Shown here one piece after another: positions 11,372-18,550 of a stretch of 64,000 bases of DNA. This DNA comes from an uncultured Rhizobiaceae group bacterium (lineage in GTDB: Bacteria > Pseudomonadota > Alphaproteobacteria > Rhizobiales > Rhizobiaceae), in contig CALLUS010000014.1 of NCBI GenBank assembly GCA_938010435.1, forward strand, positions 124,001-188,000, in the 5' to 3' direction. Below the pieces are notes generated by a model. That model saw only the letters and a list, made by a program, of their open reading frames with translations. It ran no database searches and had not been told where the DNA came from. A program made the position numbers and the translations under genes. Every line of letters starts with the position of its first letter. Position 1 is the first letter of the stretch.

Positions 11372-12319
11372 TCAAATCGACGGCATGCCGGAGCCTGCAA
11401 TGGCACCAGCACTACGGGCTTCAGACTTAATTTGCTTTAAAATTTCAGCGCCTTCACTGCCCTGAATTTGTGCAATATCATCTTGATATTTCAACAACAC
11501 ACCCAGCGTGTCTGAAATGGCTTGCGGGTCAAGCGCTACCTTATCGAGTTCCATCAAGGCCGTTGCCCAATCCAAGGTTTCGGCAATGCCCGGATTTTTA
11601 AAGAGTTCTTTCGTGCGCAATTCTTGGACATAAGCCACAATTTCTTGGCTGAGAGTCTCATCAGCTCCTGGAACCTTTTTACGCACAATATCCAGCTCCC
11701 GTTCAGCATCGGGATAATCGACCCAGTGATATAGGCAACGGCGTTTCAACGCATCGTGTATTTCTCTGGTTCGGTTTGTGGTCACAATGACAATTGGCGG
11801 TTCTTTAGCTTTAATTGTTCCAAGTTCGGGAATGGTGACTTGAAAGTCTGACAACACTTCTAAAAGGAATGCTTCAAAGGCTTCATCTGTGCGGTCCAAC
11901 TCATCAATCAGCAACACAGGGGTTACGCCTTCCACCTGCTGCAACGCTTGCAGCAACGGGCGACGGATCAAAAATCGTTCAGAAAAAACACCATCTTCCA
12001 TAGCGTCTTTATTGGTGTCGCGCGAAGCCTCGCGCATTCGAATTTCCACCATTTGCGCTGCATAGTTCCACTCATAGACAGCAGATGAGATATCCAACCC
12101 CTCATAACATTGCAGCCGGATCAACGGACGCTTCAATTGATCAGCAAGCACTTTCGCAATTTCAGTTTTGCCGACACCCGCCTCACCTTCCAAAAACAAC
12201 GGGCGTTGCATCTTCAATGAAAGATACAAAACGGTGGCTAGCGAACGGTCAGCCACATAATCAGCAGCGTTCAACAGATCGAGTGTTTCATCAATAGAAA
12301 CGGGAATTTTGGATGTCAT
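11372..12319 (-). CDS. CoxD-like MoxR-family AAA+ ATPase
   Basis: The 315-residue protein has Walker A GEAGVGKTEIAKVLA, Walker B VTPVLLIDELDRTDEAFEAF, sensor 1 IVIVTTNRTREIHDAL and the arginine-finger/sensor 2 region KRRCLYHWVDYP, the pattern of MoxR-type AAA+ chaperone ATPases. Paired with a CoxE-like VWA protein and XdhC proteins it corresponds to CoxD, a membrane-associated ATPase needed for maturing the active site of molybdenum hydroxylases. It is the first gene of the six-gene operon (12319 down to 7503). The 122 bases between it and the divergent kinase gene must hold both promoters, but I cannot pick convincing boxes. Confidence 0.88.
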   Translation of the reverse strand: MTSKIPVSIDETLDLLNAADYVADRSLATVLYLSLKMQRPLFLEGEAGVGKTEIAKVLADQLKRPLIRLQCYEGLDISSAVYEWNYAAQMVEIRMREASRDTNKDAMEDGVFSERFLIRRPLLQALQQVEGVTPVLLIDELDRTDEAFEAFLLEVLSDFQVTIPELGTIKAKEPPIVIVTTNRTREIHDALKRRCLYHWVDYPDAERELDIVRKKVPGADETLSQEIVAYVQELRTKELFKNPGIAETLDWATALMELDKVALDPQAISDTLGVLLKYQDDIAQIQGSEGAEILKQIKSEARSAGAIAGSGMPSI

Positions 12320-12441
12320 AAATGGCTGCTCAATCGAAGGTCAATTTAAACAACCTACACAGCGAATTGCGGAAACAAAAGACAATTGAGTGACGCATAT
12401 ACGCACAAAAAGACCAGCAACTTGCGCTTAAAGAATAGAAA

Positions 12442-13302
12442 ATGCAAAAAGTAAACATGACCACCGACCACATCTTGCCTTTGGAGTTAAGCGCCAAGTT
12501 TAACGTGTCTTCCATATGTTTTGTAGAGGAAACCGCGATTGCCTCTATTTGGAAAGTTCAAAGGTCGGACGGGCAATTCGCTGCTCTGAAATCCTATAGA
12601 AAAGCAAATATGGGCAATGAAAGCTGCGGATATAAATTTCTAAAGTCCTTGAACGGAGAAGCCGCAGCTCTGGTTTTTGAGCAAAGCGCGACATGTGCCG
12701 TGATCGAATGGCTAGATGGACCTTCTTTGGGTGATCTCACTCGAAATGGAAAGGATGAACAAGCGGCAACCGAACTTGTTTCTGTTGCAAACAGAATTCA
12801 TGCTGCACCTCGCTCCCAGATGCTGGAATTGCCGTTACTGGAAGACTGGTTTGAAGCACTTTTTACGACTAAGTTCGGAGCCGATTGTCCTCCAATTGCG
12901 CACAAAAACCTTTTGAAATCCAGAAACATTGCCCAACACCTCTTACAAGAACAACAAGACATTCAACCACTACATGGCGATTTACATCACGATAACATAC
13001 GGTTGGGTAAGCGAGGTTATTGCGCTTTTGATGCTAAAGGAGTTTTGGGCGAAAGAGCCTATGAATTGGCAAATGCGTTCCGCAATCCAAAAGGCGCGCC
13101 AGATTTGATACAAGACCCTGAACGCATCAGATACCTATACCGTTTGTGGAGTAAGCATTTTTGTGTCGAGCAACATCGATTGATACAATGGGCAGCGGTC
13201 AAATCTGCACTTTCAATCGCTTGGCGTGGTTCTGGAACAGTTACGATAGATCCCGAATTTGATCTTCTCGATATTTTTCTTTCAATTCTTGACGAGCAGT
13301 AA
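12442..13302 (+). CDS. APH(6)/hydroxyurea phosphotransferase-like kinase
   Basis: The 286-residue product carries the aminoglycoside/hydroxyurea kinase pattern: QPLHGDLHHDNIRLG as the catalytic loop (HGDxHxxN) and CAFDAKGVLGERAYELANAFRNP, where Asp of FDAKG is the metal ligand of the DFG-equivalent and the AYELAN-FRNP block is typical of PF04655. The family includes streptomycin 6-phosphotransferases and a hydroxyurea kinase; many chromosomal members have no proven resistance role. It stands alone, divergent from the coxD-like gene. An in-frame ATG at 12457 is an alternative start. A weak hairpin CCAAAC-AAAA-GTTTGG follows at 13319-13334. Resistance should not be assumed from homology. Confidence 0.75.
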   Translation: MQKVNMTTDHILPLELSAKFNVSSICFVEETAIASIWKVQRSDGQFAALKSYRKANMGNESCGYKFLKSLNGEAAALVFEQSATCAVIEWLDGPSLGDLTRNGKDEQAATELVSVANRIHAAPRSQMLELPLLEDWFEALFTTKFGADCPPIAHKNLLKSRNIAQHLLQEQQDIQPLHGDLHHDNIRLGKRGYCAFDAKGVLGERAYELANAFRNPKGAPDLIQDPERIRYLYRLWSKHFCVEQHRLIQWAAVKSALSIAWRGSGTVTIDPEFDLLDIFLSILDEQ

Positions 13303-13484: not shown

Positions 13485-13523
13485 AAAAAAAGACCCGTTC
13501 AATTCCGAAGAATCAAACGGGTC
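13485..13523 (-). terminator. Intrinsic terminator of the candidate small RNA
   Basis: Stem GACCCGTT (13523-13516) pairs with AACGGGTC (13499-13492), with inner ATTC/GAAT pairing around a CGGA-type loop, followed on the minus strand by seven T (13491-13485). Confidence 0.85.
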
Positions 13524-13533
13524 AAACAGTCGT

Positions 13534-13590
13534 TCAGGGGCGATCGACGACTGCAATTAGTTGGGTTACTTGATCCAAAAAATGTTTCAT
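13534..13590 (-). CDS. 18-residue small ORF inside the candidate small RNA
   Basis: ATG at 13590 opens MKHFLDQVTQLIAVVDRP and stops at TGA 13536-13534. It is preceded by GGAAGTGGGGGACT, an unusually G-rich ribosome-binding region at good spacing. The peptide has no run of one amino acid that would mark a classic biosynthetic leader. It lies between the predicted transcript start and a hairpin plus terminator, the layout of leader peptides, but no gene follows. Translation is unproven. Confidence 0.35.
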   Translation of the reverse strand: MKHFLDQVTQLIAVVDRP

Positions 13591-13633
13591 AGTCCCCCAC
13601 TTCCAAAATAGTAACATTTTTGAGATCTTTGAC

Positions 13634-13649
13634 TGTGAGAAAAATCACA
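13634..13649. promoter_or_regulatory. CRP-type operator TGTGA-N6-TCACA
   Basis: The sequence is the exact consensus palindrome TGTGA-GAAAAA-TCACA. Its centre (13641.5) is 31 bases from the centre of the TACTAT -10 box on the minus strand, matching the position of a class II activator site near -41.5. It begins about 20 bases beyond the lysE stop. The regulator itself is not in the window, but a class III nucleotide cyclase is (45954-47333). Confidence 0.5.
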
Positions 13650-13667
13650 CTCATGATTTACCAAACG

Positions 13668-14264
13668 TCACGTACGCAACATCGGCCAAAGTGACCCCAC
13701 CAATGCCAACGCCATTATAGTATTGAATAGTTTGAGCTTTTTGGGATCTTTCAAAAAATTTCGCATGGCCGTGCCAAATCCGGCCCATATAGAAACAGAT
13801 GGAAAATTTACAAAACAAAACGCAAAGACGACGATTAGAACATTGATCGTATAGTCACCTTCTGTCGTATAGGTCGCCATTGCCGTTGCAGCCATTACCC
13901 AAGCTTTCGGATTAACCCATTGAAACAAGGCCGCACTCAGAAACATCATGGGGCGTGCTTCACCACCTTTAATTTCAACCGGTCCTGAATTGTAAATCTT
14001 CCAAGCCAACCAGAGCATATAGGCTCCTCCAGCAATTTTGATTGCCAAAAAGATTGGAGGATATTGCTTCAAGACAACGCCCAATCCAGCACCAACAGCC
14101 GCCAGTAAAACCCCAAACCCAAACGCAATACCAAACATGTGCGGTACCGTGCGGCGCAGTCCAAAATTTACGCCAGAAGAAAACAGCATGATGTTATTCG
14201 GCCCGGGCGTAACGGATGATACAAATGAAAAAATCAATAGAGCTGAAAATGTGGCGAGTGTCAT
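13668..14264 (-). CDS. LysE/RhtB-family amino-acid exporter
   Basis: The 198-residue protein is a six-helix inner-membrane exporter of the LysE/RhtB superfamily. Typical blocks are SSVTPGPNNIMLFSSGVNFG near the N terminus (the family's PGP motif), VLKQYPPIFLAIKIAGGAYMLWLAWKI and FQWVNPKAWVMA. Members export lysine, threonine, homoserine lactone-type compounds or other amino acids using the proton gradient; the substrate is not readable. It follows the Cys-rich lipoprotein gene by 28 bases on the same strand and may be co-transcribed with it. No terminator stands between its stop and the CRP-type site. Confidence 0.9.
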   Translation of the reverse strand: MTLATFSALLIFSFVSSVTPGPNNIMLFSSGVNFGLRRTVPHMFGIAFGFGVLLAAVGAGLGVVLKQYPPIFLAIKIAGGAYMLWLAWKIYNSGPVEIKGGEARPMMFLSAALFQWVNPKAWVMAATAMATYTTEGDYTINVLIVVFAFCFVNFPSVSIWAGFGTAMRNFLKDPKKLKLFNTIMALALVGSLWPMLRT

Positions 14265-14292: not shown

Positions 14293-15036
14293 TCAATCAG
14301 CTGACTGAAGAAACGTCTCTTCCAATTGTTTGGCATAACTGCACGCTTCGTCTTCAGCATCTAGCACACAAGCCTTCGTTAATTTTTGCTTCGAAACAGA
14401 GAGGTTCTTTTCTGCGCCCTGACCTCTACCATAGGCCTCTCCCAACATAGCGCAGCCCCACGCATCATTGTGCTCACAGCCCGTTTTGAAGAGTTCAAAG
14501 GTACAAGCGTAACCATTGGACTTTAAATTTTGTGACAGCGGGTCGGCTTCAGATGGATAGTTCAACAACCCACCTCCACGGTTTGTGCAACCCGACGCAC
14601 TGCCTGTGGCACAAGCCAGCGCATAAGTTTTACGACCTGGTGTTGTCCCGATTTCTTCATGTGTTCCCGCGCCTTCCAGAGCTTGCGCCAGCGACAGGCA
14701 GACGTTTGCATCACCATCCAAACAGATGGACAAACACAGCTCCGGCGAAAGCGAACATAGATGTTGGTCCAATTCCTCTGCACCCAGCACTACATTCATT
14801 ACGTTTGTGATGAGTGATTGTTCCTTACCAAAGTGCTTAGCGGGACATTGGTTGAAATAGGTGTTGAATTTTTCATGACCATCCACTTTTTTTGCAACGG
14901 ACTTGAGAGCTGCAAGCTTTTTGCTCTCATCTTCTATGCGCTCTTCAATCTGTTGTTCGATATTGGTGAATTCTTCGATCTCATTACAACCAACAAGCAT
15001 CATTCCACACAGTGCAAAAACAAACCATCGCAACAT
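14293..15036 (-). CDS. Cys-rich lipoprotein with Sel1-like repeats
   Basis: The N terminus MLRWFVFALCGMMLVGC is a lipoprotein signal with lipobox LVGC, so the mature protein should be lipid-anchored in the envelope. After a charged coiled segment (EEFTNIEQQIEERIEDESKKL) come Cys-paired helical repeats such as YACTFELFKTGCEHNDAWGC, AMLGEAYGRGQGAEKN and KACVLDAEDEACSYAKQLE. The spacing resembles the disulfide-linked Sel1-like repeats of Hcp proteins. Such repeats mediate protein contacts; no enzyme activity is implied. An overlapping GTG at 15039 is possible, but the ATG at 15036 is preferred. It directly abuts the ilvH stop, so it may be read as the last gene after ilvI-ilvH. Confidence 0.7.
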   Translation of the reverse strand: MLRWFVFALCGMMLVGCNEIEEFTNIEQQIEERIEDESKKLAALKSVAKKVDGHEKFNTYFNQCPAKHFGKEQSLITNVMNVVLGAEELDQHLCSLSPELCLSICLDGDANVCLSLAQALEGAGTHEEIGTTPGRKTYALACATGSASGCTNRGGGLLNYPSEADPLSQNLKSNGYACTFELFKTGCEHNDAWGCAMLGEAYGRGQGAEKNLSVSKQKLTKACVLDAEDEACSYAKQLEETFLQSAD

Positions 15037-15038
15037 CA

Positions 15039-15632
15039 CTACATTCCTTCAACACCACGGTTCATGGCGGCAATTCCTGTGCGACAGACTTCAACGAGTC
15101 CCAACGGAGTGAGGATGGATATAAACTGCTCCACCTTTTGCTGACGTCCCGTAATTTCAAAAATGAAATGTTTGGTCGTTGCATCAGTAACAATTGCGCC
15201 AAAAGCTTCAGCCAAACGCAACGCTTCCACACGGTCATTACCTTCACCGGCAACTTTCACCAGCGCAAGTTCCCGCTCTAACGGTTTCTCGTGCCCTTTG
15301 GAATGAGCAACCAATGTAAGGTCAACCACACGATGTACGGGCACCATACGTTCAAGTTGTCGCTTAATCTGTTCAAGCACTTTGGGCGTACCTTTGGAGA
15401 TAATCGTGATCCGCGACAAATGCTGTTCATGCTCGGTTTCCGAGACCGTCAGACTTTCAATATTGTAGCCACGCCCGGAAAACAATCCAATCACACGCGC
15501 TAGAACTCCACTTTCATTGTCGACCAAAACAGACAAAGTGTGTTGCACAATGACATCTGTATTCTCAGCGATGAAATATGCGGATGCTGGTGGCAATACC
15601 GGCTTATTTTGATTTTGAATCTCTTTGGCCAT
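15039..15632 (-). CDS. ilvH: Acetolactate synthase small (regulatory) subunit IlvH
   Basis: The 197-residue protein has an N-terminal ACT domain (HTLSVLVDNESGVLARVIGLF, then GRGYNIESLTVSETE) that binds valine for feedback control, and a C-terminal small-subunit domain (RELALVKVAGEG, HFIFEITG, LTPLGLVEVCRTGIAAMNRG). It activates and regulates the catalytic subunit IlvI, the first common enzyme of valine, leucine and isoleucine synthesis in the cytosol. Unusually, a DMT transporter gene separates it from ilvI; the gap to that gene is only six bases, so all three are probably one transcript behind the ilv attenuator at 18443-18550. The length is a little above the usual 165-180 because of a short N-terminal tail. 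Confidence 0.96.
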   Translation of the reverse strand: MAKEIQNQNKPVLPPASAYFIAENTDVIVQHTLSVLVDNESGVLARVIGLFSGRGYNIESLTVSETEHEQHLSRITIISKGTPKVLEQIKRQLERMVPVHRVVDLTLVAHSKGHEKPLERELALVKVAGEGNDRVEALRLAEAFGAIVTDATTKHFIFEITGRQQKVEQFISILTPLGLVEVCRTGIAAMNRGVEGM

Positions 15633-16568: not shown

Positions 16569-18362
16569 TTAAACCAGAGCTTTGCCTTTCTCATCGATGG
16601 CTTTGCCAACAACTTCATCAGTCGCTTCATCGGGCAACAACATTTCGTTGTGAGCTTTGCCTGAAGGGATCATTGGGAAGCAGTTTGCCAATGCAACAAT
16701 GCAACAATCGAAAATTACCGGACCCGGCGTCTCGATCATTTTTTTTATCGCAGCATCCAATTGATCAGGCTTGGAGCAACGAATGCCAGTTGCACCATAA
16801 GCTTCCGCAAGTTTTACAAAATCAGGCATGGCTTCCGTGTATGAGTTGGAGAGGCGGTTACCGTGCAGCAATTGCTGCCACTGACGCACCATGCCCATAT
16901 ATTCATTGTTCAAAATCATAATTTTGATCGGCGCACCGTGCTGCATGGCCGAAGACATTTCTTGAATATTCATCTGAACAGATGCATCGCCGGCCACACA
17001 TACAACCAATGAATCAGGGTGCGCGATTTGCACACCCATCGCAGCAGGCAGTCCATACCCCATTGTGCCCAATCCACCCGATGTCATCCAACGGTTCGGT
17101 TCATCAAAATCGAAATATTGAGCCGCCCACATCTGGTGCTGTCCAACTTCCGTTGTGATGTAAGTGTCATGACCTTTCGTCATCGCATTCAGACGCTCGA
17201 TCGCGAGTTGAGGCATGATCACGTCATCATTGGGTTTGTAAGACAAAGACTTACGATCACGCCACATGTTGATCTGCGCCCACCACTTTTTCATGTCTTC
17301 TTCCGCAGGTTTTGCAGACTGGGCCCGCCACAAACGCACCATATCTTCAAGCACATGCTCCACATCGCCAATAATCGGCACATCGGCATGAACAACTTTG
17401 TTGATGGACGATGCATCCACATCGATGTGGATGATCTTGGCATCAGGTGCAAAAGCATCGAGTCGGCCTGTAATGCGGTCATCAAAACGCGCACCGATAC
17501 AAACCATCACATCACAACCGTGCATGGTCATATTGGCTTCATAAGTGCCGTGCATGCCCAACATGCCCAACCAATTGTCACCACTGGCAGGATAGCAACC
17601 AAGTCCCATCAAAGTCGAAGTGATTGGAAAGTTGGTAAGCTTCACCAATTCACGCAACAAACGGGTCGCATCGTCGCCCGAATTGACAACACCGCCGCCC
17701 GAATAAATTACAGGCTTCTTAGCGGACGCCATAAGAGCTACAGCCTCCTTAATTTTCTCAAGGTCACCAGAAAGCTTTGGTTGATAATGCGCCTGATCAA
17801 ATGCGGATGGCGGATGATAAATGCCAGTGGCGAATTGAACGTCTTTAGGAACATCAACAACAACAGGTCCTGGACGACCGTGTGTCGCCACATGGAATGC
17901 TTCATGCAGCACAGCAGCAAGCTCATTCACATCGCTCACGAGCCAGTTGTGTTTCGTACAAGGCCGCGTAATGCCAACGGTATCGCATTCTTGAAAAGCG
18001 TCCGATCCGATCAAAGGCGTTGGCACTTGTCCCGTTATACAAATCAACGGGATGGAATCCATCAAAGCATCTTGCAACGGTGTAACGGTATTGGTCGCAC
18101 CTGGACCTGATGTGACAAGAAGAACACCGGGCTTTCCAGTTGACCGGGCGTAACCTTCTGCAGCGTGACCTGCCCCTTGCTCATGCCGCACCAGAATATG
18201 ACGCACTTCTTCTTGCTGATGCAGTTCATCGTAAATCGGAAGAACAGCACCACCGGGATAGCCGAACAAATCGGTCACACCATTGTCAATCAACGCCTGT
18301 ACCACCATTTCGGCGCCTGTCATTTCTCGTGAGCCGGTATCTGTCTTTGTTGTTTTGGTCAT
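16569..18362 (-). CDS. ilvI: Acetolactate synthase large (catalytic) subunit
   Basis: A 597-residue thiamine-diphosphate enzyme: N-terminal GYPGGAVLPIYDEL and HEQGAGHAAEGYARSTGKPGVLLVTSGPGATN form the PYR domain including the catalytic Glu; the middle FAD-binding region has GARFDDRITG; the C-terminal PP domain has GDASVQMNIQEMSSAMQHGAPIKIMILNN, the Mg2+/ThDP motif. It condenses pyruvate (or pyruvate with 2-oxobutyrate) to acetolactate or acetohydroxybutyrate in the cytosol. The first gene after the attenuator, it begins about 80 bases beyond the leader terminator. Length and motifs match normal IlvI/IlvB proteins; the symbol ilvI or ilvB depends on convention. Confidence 0.96.
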   Translation of the reverse strand: MTKTTKTDTGSREMTGAEMVVQALIDNGVTDLFGYPGGAVLPIYDELHQQEEVRHILVRHEQGAGHAAEGYARSTGKPGVLLVTSGPGATNTVTPLQDALMDSIPLICITGQVPTPLIGSDAFQECDTVGITRPCTKHNWLVSDVNELAAVLHEAFHVATHGRPGPVVVDVPKDVQFATGIYHPPSAFDQAHYQPKLSGDLEKIKEAVALMASAKKPVIYSGGGVVNSGDDATRLLRELVKLTNFPITSTLMGLGCYPASGDNWLGMLGMHGTYEANMTMHGCDVMVCIGARFDDRITGRLDAFAPDAKIIHIDVDASSINKVVHADVPIIGDVEHVLEDMVRLWRAQSAKPAEEDMKKWWAQINMWRDRKSLSYKPNDDVIMPQLAIERLNAMTKGHDTYITTEVGQHQMWAAQYFDFDEPNRWMTSGGLGTMGYGLPAAMGVQIAHPDSLVVCVAGDASVQMNIQEMSSAMQHGAPIKIMILNNEYMGMVRQWQQLLHGNRLSNSYTEAMPDFVKLAEAYGATGIRCSKPDQLDAAIKKMIETPGPVIFDCCIVALANCFPMIPSGKAHNEMLLPDEATDEVVGKAIDEKGKALV

Positions 18363-18442
18363 AGTTCTTCTCTTTTATTTCGTTCGGTCGTCCGGACGGT
18401 CTTTTCAATTTGGCTTTAAAAATAACATTTCAAATCAGCCAA

Positions 18443-18466
18443 TAAAAAAGGCCCCCGAAGGAGCCT
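18443..18466 (-). terminator. ilv attenuator terminator
   Basis: On the minus strand AGGCTCC (18466-18460), loop TTCG, then GGGGCCT (18455-18449), followed by a T run (18449-18444). The C(TTCG)G loop is very stable. It stands between the leader peptide and ilvI. Upstream a competing stem GCGCGTT-N-GCAT with ATGC-N-AACGCGC (within 18467-18515) covers the end of the leader ORF. Confidence 0.9.
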
Positions 18467-18493
18467 GACGCGCGTTAGCATTCATGAAGGTTT

Positions 18494-18550
18494 TCAAACC
18501 ATCATGCCAACGCGCCTAATCACCACCACTAGAATATTGAACATTCTCAT
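18494..18550 (-). CDS. ilv leader peptide (18 residues)
   Basis: ATG at 18550 opens MRMFNILVVVIRRVGMMV, ending at TGA 18496-18494. Seven of the 18 residues are Ile, Leu or Val, with the run ILVVVI, as expected for an attenuation leader that stalls ribosomes when branched-chain aminoacyl-tRNAs are scarce. AAAGGTGA just before the ATG is a good ribosome-binding site. It lies between a sigma70-type promoter and a strong terminator upstream of ilvI. When the ribosome stalls on these codons, the GCGCGTT/AACGCGC stem cannot form and an antiterminator presumably does. Confidence 0.9.
   Translation of the reverse strand: MRMFNILVVVIRRVGMMV

Follow-up and report, generated by a model that had tools for sequence, protein, structure and literature searches.

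A compact unit between lysE and moxR

The window (the whole 64,000-nucleotide stretch of DNA that we analysed, from the genome referred to here as G000) carries on its minus strand, directly downstream of a LysE-family exporter gene, a compact unit that comprises a CRP-type palindrome, a putative −10 element and a predicted structured transcript of about 116 nt. The features of the locus are listed below in the direction of the predicted transcript, with the evidence for each in brackets.

13668..14264, minus strand: LysE-family exporter gene, directly upstream of the sRNA (neighbour in 11 of 13 genomes)
13634..13649, minus strand: CRP-type operator TGTGATTTTTCTCACA, a perfect TGTGA-N6-TCACA (sequence; shuffles; relatives)
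13608..13613, minus strand: putative −10 element TACTAT (sequence; spacing in relatives)
13485..13601, minus strand: predicted sRNA transcript, ~116 nt, three hairpins (fold z-score; homology; model matches)
13562..13599, minus strand: 5′ hairpin, its G-run pairing with the CCC of AACCCAAC (folds of 13 sequences)
13534..13590, minus strand: 18-codon ORF MKHFLDQVTQLIAVVDRP, judged not to be a gene (not conserved in 12 relatives)
13526..13554, minus strand: central hairpin with the exposed loop AUCGCCCC (compensatory changes in 9 of 10 pairs)
13536..13541, minus strand: invariant loop core GCCCCU, putative base-pairing seed (invariant in 13 of 13)
13485..13523, minus strand: intrinsic terminator, a 14-bp stem (13523-13492) followed by T7 (13 of 14 pairs covary)
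12442..13302, plus strand: APH(6)-like phosphotransferase gene, separating moxR from the sRNA
12320..12390, minus strand: conserved promoter-like stretch of moxR, TTGTCTTTTGTTT...CTGTGTAGG (alignment of G000, G013 and G008)
11372..12319, minus strand: moxR/CoxD-like AAA ATPase gene, conserved downstream neighbour

The elements named in an earlier, sequence-only reading of this DNA are all present: the perfect palindrome (13649-13634), TACTAT 31 bases from it, centre to centre, in a class II geometry that is conserved in the genus, an 18-codon ORF preceded by a G-rich stretch, a stem with a CCCC loop (13554-13526), and a strong terminator. Its statement that no gene follows on this strand does not hold, as moxR (start at 12319) comes 1.17 kb further on and is directly downstream in relatives.

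The APH(6)-like gene is found at the sRNA–moxR locus in G000 only, and relatives have no such gene there. A lipoprotein-like gene without a Pfam match (14293-15039, minus strand) is conserved in close relatives, with ilvH on one side and lysE or the sRNA on the other. Further away in the window, Rfam reports a 58.5-bit match to the Atu_C8 ‘sRNA’ (18434-18550, minus strand), ahead of the gene for the acetolactate synthase large subunit (16569-18362) by about 72 nt; this leader encodes the Ile/Leu/Val-rich peptide MRMFNILVVVIRRVGMMV*, with hairpins and a T-run after it, and resembles a transcription attenuator of ilv genes more than an independent sRNA. The tmRNA of the window is of the alphaproteobacterial type (Rfam).

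The unit is conserved within one genus

The predicted transcript has a fold energy of −45.8 kcal/mol (z = −4.67), and none of 200 shuffled sequences was equally stable. The perfect TGTGA-N6-TCACA occurs once in the window (0.08 expected), and at least one copy was present in 8 of 100 shuffled windows. Since about 8% of shuffled windows carry such a box, the box by itself is only mildly improbable, and it is therefore conservation that must decide.

To follow conservation we used 15 genomes of one Rhizobiaceae genus, G000 included. By DNA search, five relatives carry the unit, with 77-79% identity across about 190 nt in G013 and G008. A search with the loop pattern was positive in 8 of the 15 genomes, counting G000, and a covariance model built on these eight matched the unit in 13 of the 15, always as a single, syntenic copy placed after ilvH, ilvH-lysE or lysE and before moxR. 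The G000 unit scores 86 bits against this model, like its relatives; the five weakest matches were checked, and each lies upstream of moxR and has both the GCCCCU loop and TGTG-N8-CACA. The sRNA was not found in G005, where moxR sits in a different context, and the model had no match in G014 (0.9 Mb). Its retention in 13 of the 15 genomes, together with the covariation, puts the unit as a whole far beyond chance.

Searching 297 genomes of the family with the covariance model gave eight matches in all and no convincing member outside the genus. The five extra-genus matches (30.9-33.7 bits) resemble terminators hit by chance: box and synteny are missing in all of them, and the four of the five for which an alignment was shown all lack the GCCCCU loop. 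Among 397 genomes of the order, a pattern search returned two matches other than the unit’s own, both of which we took as chance, and in 76 lysE loci of other species the box and loop were absent at the corresponding site. Judged by these samples of the family, the order and lysE loci, the RNA family appears restricted to one genus.

A conserved operator at a probable activating position

Assuming that transcription starts near 13600, the centre of the palindrome falls at about −40.5 to −41.5, as in class II promoters. TGTG-N8-CACA is found at the equivalent place in 13 of 13 genomes, eight of which have the perfect TGTGA-N6-TCACA, and it lies 90-105 nt upstream of the GCCCC loop in every case; by our estimate, chance would place TGTG-N8-CACA within such a 16-base range in only about one in 4000 genomes (16/4^8). 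The distance from the palindrome to the best −10-like hexamer is about 27-31 bases in most of the 13 genomes, and in most relatives the spacing between box and −10 varies by 1-2 bases at most, with hexamers that match the consensus at just 3-4 of 6 positions. A conserved CRP-type operator thus appears to sit at an activating position, with class II spacing in most genomes, although the box could instead mediate repression or bind another CRP-family protein.

From genes on contigs C4, C5 and C8, G000 encodes three CRP-like proteins with a recognition helix of the form RExVSR; their helix motifs are RREVVSR, HREAVSR and RREIVSR, as compared to SRETVGR in E. coli CAP, in which R180, E181 and R185 read the site (TGTGA) (PMC10127613). 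As far as such motifs predict specificity, the genome encodes a transcription factor capable of reading TGTGA-N6-TCACA. Genome-wide, G000 has 11 perfect boxes, with none for the reversed control. Three of the 11 are intergenic: that of the sRNA, one just ahead of the gene for a CHASE2 adenylate cyclase (L169:760-3049; contig C8 of G000, 28260 onward) and one before a YkuD gene. The cyclase box, TGTGAGGAATCTCACA, lies about 30 nt upstream of the start codon, and on the same contig, some 5 kb away from the cyclase gene, lies one of the three CRP-like genes; adenylate cyclase, box and CRP-like gene likely constitute a cAMP feedback module. The third intergenic box (contig C5, 190911-190926) is located between a fumarate hydratase-like gene and the YkuD L,D-transpeptidase gene.

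The unit is unlikely to belong to either of its neighbours

Given its position, the unit might act in cis on the moxR-coxE operon, as a leader or attenuator in which CRP promoter, hairpin and terminator would control read-through; indeed, moxR follows the terminator on the same strand at a distance of 55-205 nt in 12 of the 13 genomes. We nevertheless consider this unlikely. Past the terminator moxR has a separate conserved promoter-like element, also in G000, where an 861-nt gene on the opposite strand intervenes and the unit still scores like those of its relatives; in addition, no alternative pairing of the antiterminator type was seen in the 13 folds. On account of the separate promoter-like element and the intervening APH(6)-like gene, we rejected the moxR leader.

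We hold it to be similarly improbable that the unit is a mere lysE 3′ UTR with its terminator, perhaps yielding a 3′UTR-derived sRNA, and that the CRP box is unrelated to it. While lysE directly precedes the unit in 11 of the 13 genomes, the box, loop and terminator are kept in G012 and G006, where the locus has no lysE match, and over 70 further loci with ilvH-lysE or lysE have none of the three.

Covarying stems and an invariant C-rich loop

Folded separately, the 13 sequences each give a variable 5′ hairpin, a central hairpin whose C-rich loop stays open, and a terminator. The sequence of the 5′ hairpin is variable, and a 5′ stem is nonetheless predicted in 13 of 13; the terminator U-tracts are interrupted in several relatives. 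The loop core GCCCCU is constant in all 13 genomes while the flanking stems diverge, and its mean unpaired probability is 0.83-0.87 in 12 of them and 0.60 in G001.

In the aligned model matches, 94.8% of cells are paired and 22 of 24 pairs have changes on both sides, with 60 double-change cells as compared to 14.5 in shuffles (none of 500 shuffles was as good) and 36-49% of cells paired in slid controls; these figures lean somewhat towards structure, because the 14-row alignment was fitted to the model and one row is a partial reverse-strand match to the terminator. RNAalifold on the first eight sequences, which were aligned by sequence, finds double changes in 15 of 24 pairs. The covariation, the terminator and the lack of a conserved ORF point to a discrete RNA that is structured, ends at a terminator of its own and does not code for protein.

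Two further roles are conceivable for this RNA, both of which we consider very unlikely. According to the first, it would be a dual-function RNA or small-protein gene, with the 18-codon ORF translated under CRP control. A G-rich stretch does directly precede the ATG and its 18 sense codons, and many small proteins are among the targets of S. meliloti Clr (PMC10127613). However, exactly this ORF exists only in G000 among the 13 genomes; in 6 of the 13, no complete ORF runs from a start codon to the loop stop, which is itself gone in G011 and G003. Peptides are alike across genomes solely in the tail dictated by the hairpin, the compensatory changes favour base pairing over codons (the stems covary and the ORF is not kept), and the G-run before the ORF sits within a stem. 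As the ORF is unconserved and the peptides are unrelated outside the hairpin, dual function is unlikely and the 18-codon peptide is probably not real. What stands of the proposal of a regulatory or dual-function RNA is the regulatory part, which agrees with the conserved class II CRP-type box and with a discrete, structured and separately terminated RNA; the peptide falls away.

The second role, in which the CCCC loop pairs with the RNA’s own 5′ GGGGG as a self-regulating switch or dimerisation element, has in its favour that the 5′ part holds at least four consecutive G in 9 of the 13 sequences, mostly within 2-9 nt of the predicted start. Such a pseudoknot is, however, not favoured as the main fold: the predicted folds leave the loop open (least so in G001), and the G-run, where it is paired, pairs locally, in G000 preferentially with a CCC close by to form its own 5′ hairpin. 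In 4 of 13 genomes the G-run is just 2-3 nt long, with the loop core unchanged.

Relation to known regulatory RNAs

We conclude that the unit is very probably a small regulatory RNA gene with a CRP-type promoter box, previously uncatalogued. An Rfam scan of the unit and the loci of 12 relatives found no family at threshold. The best similarity was to anti-hemB (RF02837, Burkholderia), a short hairpin with a C-rich loop followed by a terminator; at 21.7 bits as compared to a gathering score of 49.5 we rejected membership, as we did for Betaproteobacteria_toxic_sRNA (RF02278; 14.3 bits, gathering threshold 50).

In enterobacteria, Spot 42 and CyaR are CRP-regulated sRNAs of carbon metabolism. 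The unit resembles them in the logic of a CRP box combined with a pairing seed, with no homology by Rfam. CRP-controlled sRNAs are familiar in enterobacteria and, to our knowledge, hardly described in Alphaproteobacteria. According to the S. meliloti study, there are few reports of a CRP regulating an sRNA (PMC10127613). One precedent is SMelC181 of S. meliloti, an sRNA gene that Clr-cAMP/cGMP activates directly (PMC10127613); like our unit, it is a Rhizobiaceae small noncoding RNA under the direct control of a CRP-like protein, control that is predicted in our case. The two differ in their operators: Clr has no equivalent of E181 and reads GTNNCNNNNGNNAC (PMC10127613), whereas the box described here, TGTGA-N6-TCACA, is of the E. 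coli kind and RExVxR is kept in the CRP homologues of G000.

With respect to the loop, the closest parallels are Caulobacter GsrN, which acts on G-tracts via a C-rich loop (PMC5869019), and Agrobacterium PmaR, which acts on mRNA targets through an exposed C-rich loop (PMC6234868). Both are alphaproteobacterial sRNAs with the kind of exposed C-rich loop that we predict; unlike our unit they are under other control (the general stress response for GsrN) and in another genomic context, and we saw no shared sequence beyond C-richness and no Rfam match for our unit. On these comparisons, what seems new here is the genus-restricted family, and the kind – a CRP-controlled sRNA with a C-rich seed – is known.

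Proposed function and candidate targets

The reading that we prefer, and consider probable, is that of a free-standing gene for a trans-acting sRNA of about 116 nt with a class II CRP-type promoter, its own terminator and a C-rich seed. When cAMP is high, the sRNA would be transcribed from the class II promoter up to its own intrinsic terminator; the central hairpin would expose the C-rich loop AUCGCCCCU, probably the seed, which would pair with G-rich sites of target mRNAs (ribosome-binding sites or G-tracts in leaders), and this pairing would alter their translation or stability. We infer from the sequence both that the sRNA is transcribed and that cAMP-CRP activates rather than represses it; the RNA may use Hfq, and pairing of the loop with G-rich mRNA sites is suggested by analogy with GsrN and PmaR.

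A search for AGGGGCGA or AGGGGCG before ATG did not find a genus-wide target. In G000 and G013, AGGGGCG sites in the start regions of an mmsB-like and an acyl-CoA dehydrogenase-like gene pair so well that about 1% of shuffles or fewer do equally well. The mmsB-like site is kept in these two genomes only and lost elsewhere, and the acyl-CoA dehydrogenase-like site is weakly conserved, in about five genomes. The mmsB-like protein, which begins MATIGFIGLGNMG, was named by inspection and is of the 3-hydroxyisobutyrate dehydrogenase type.

More tentatively, this lineage-specific sRNA could be the RNA arm of a cAMP circuit, sharing an E. coli-type box with the CHASE2 adenylate cyclase gene (feedback) and silencing the G-rich ribosome-binding sites of catabolic genes; we regard this as a possibility on the doubtful side. 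The unit adds a structurally well-supported sRNA family, with a conserved operator, an invariant putative seed and a nearby cAMP system, and its covariance model is usable for Rfam-type annotation.
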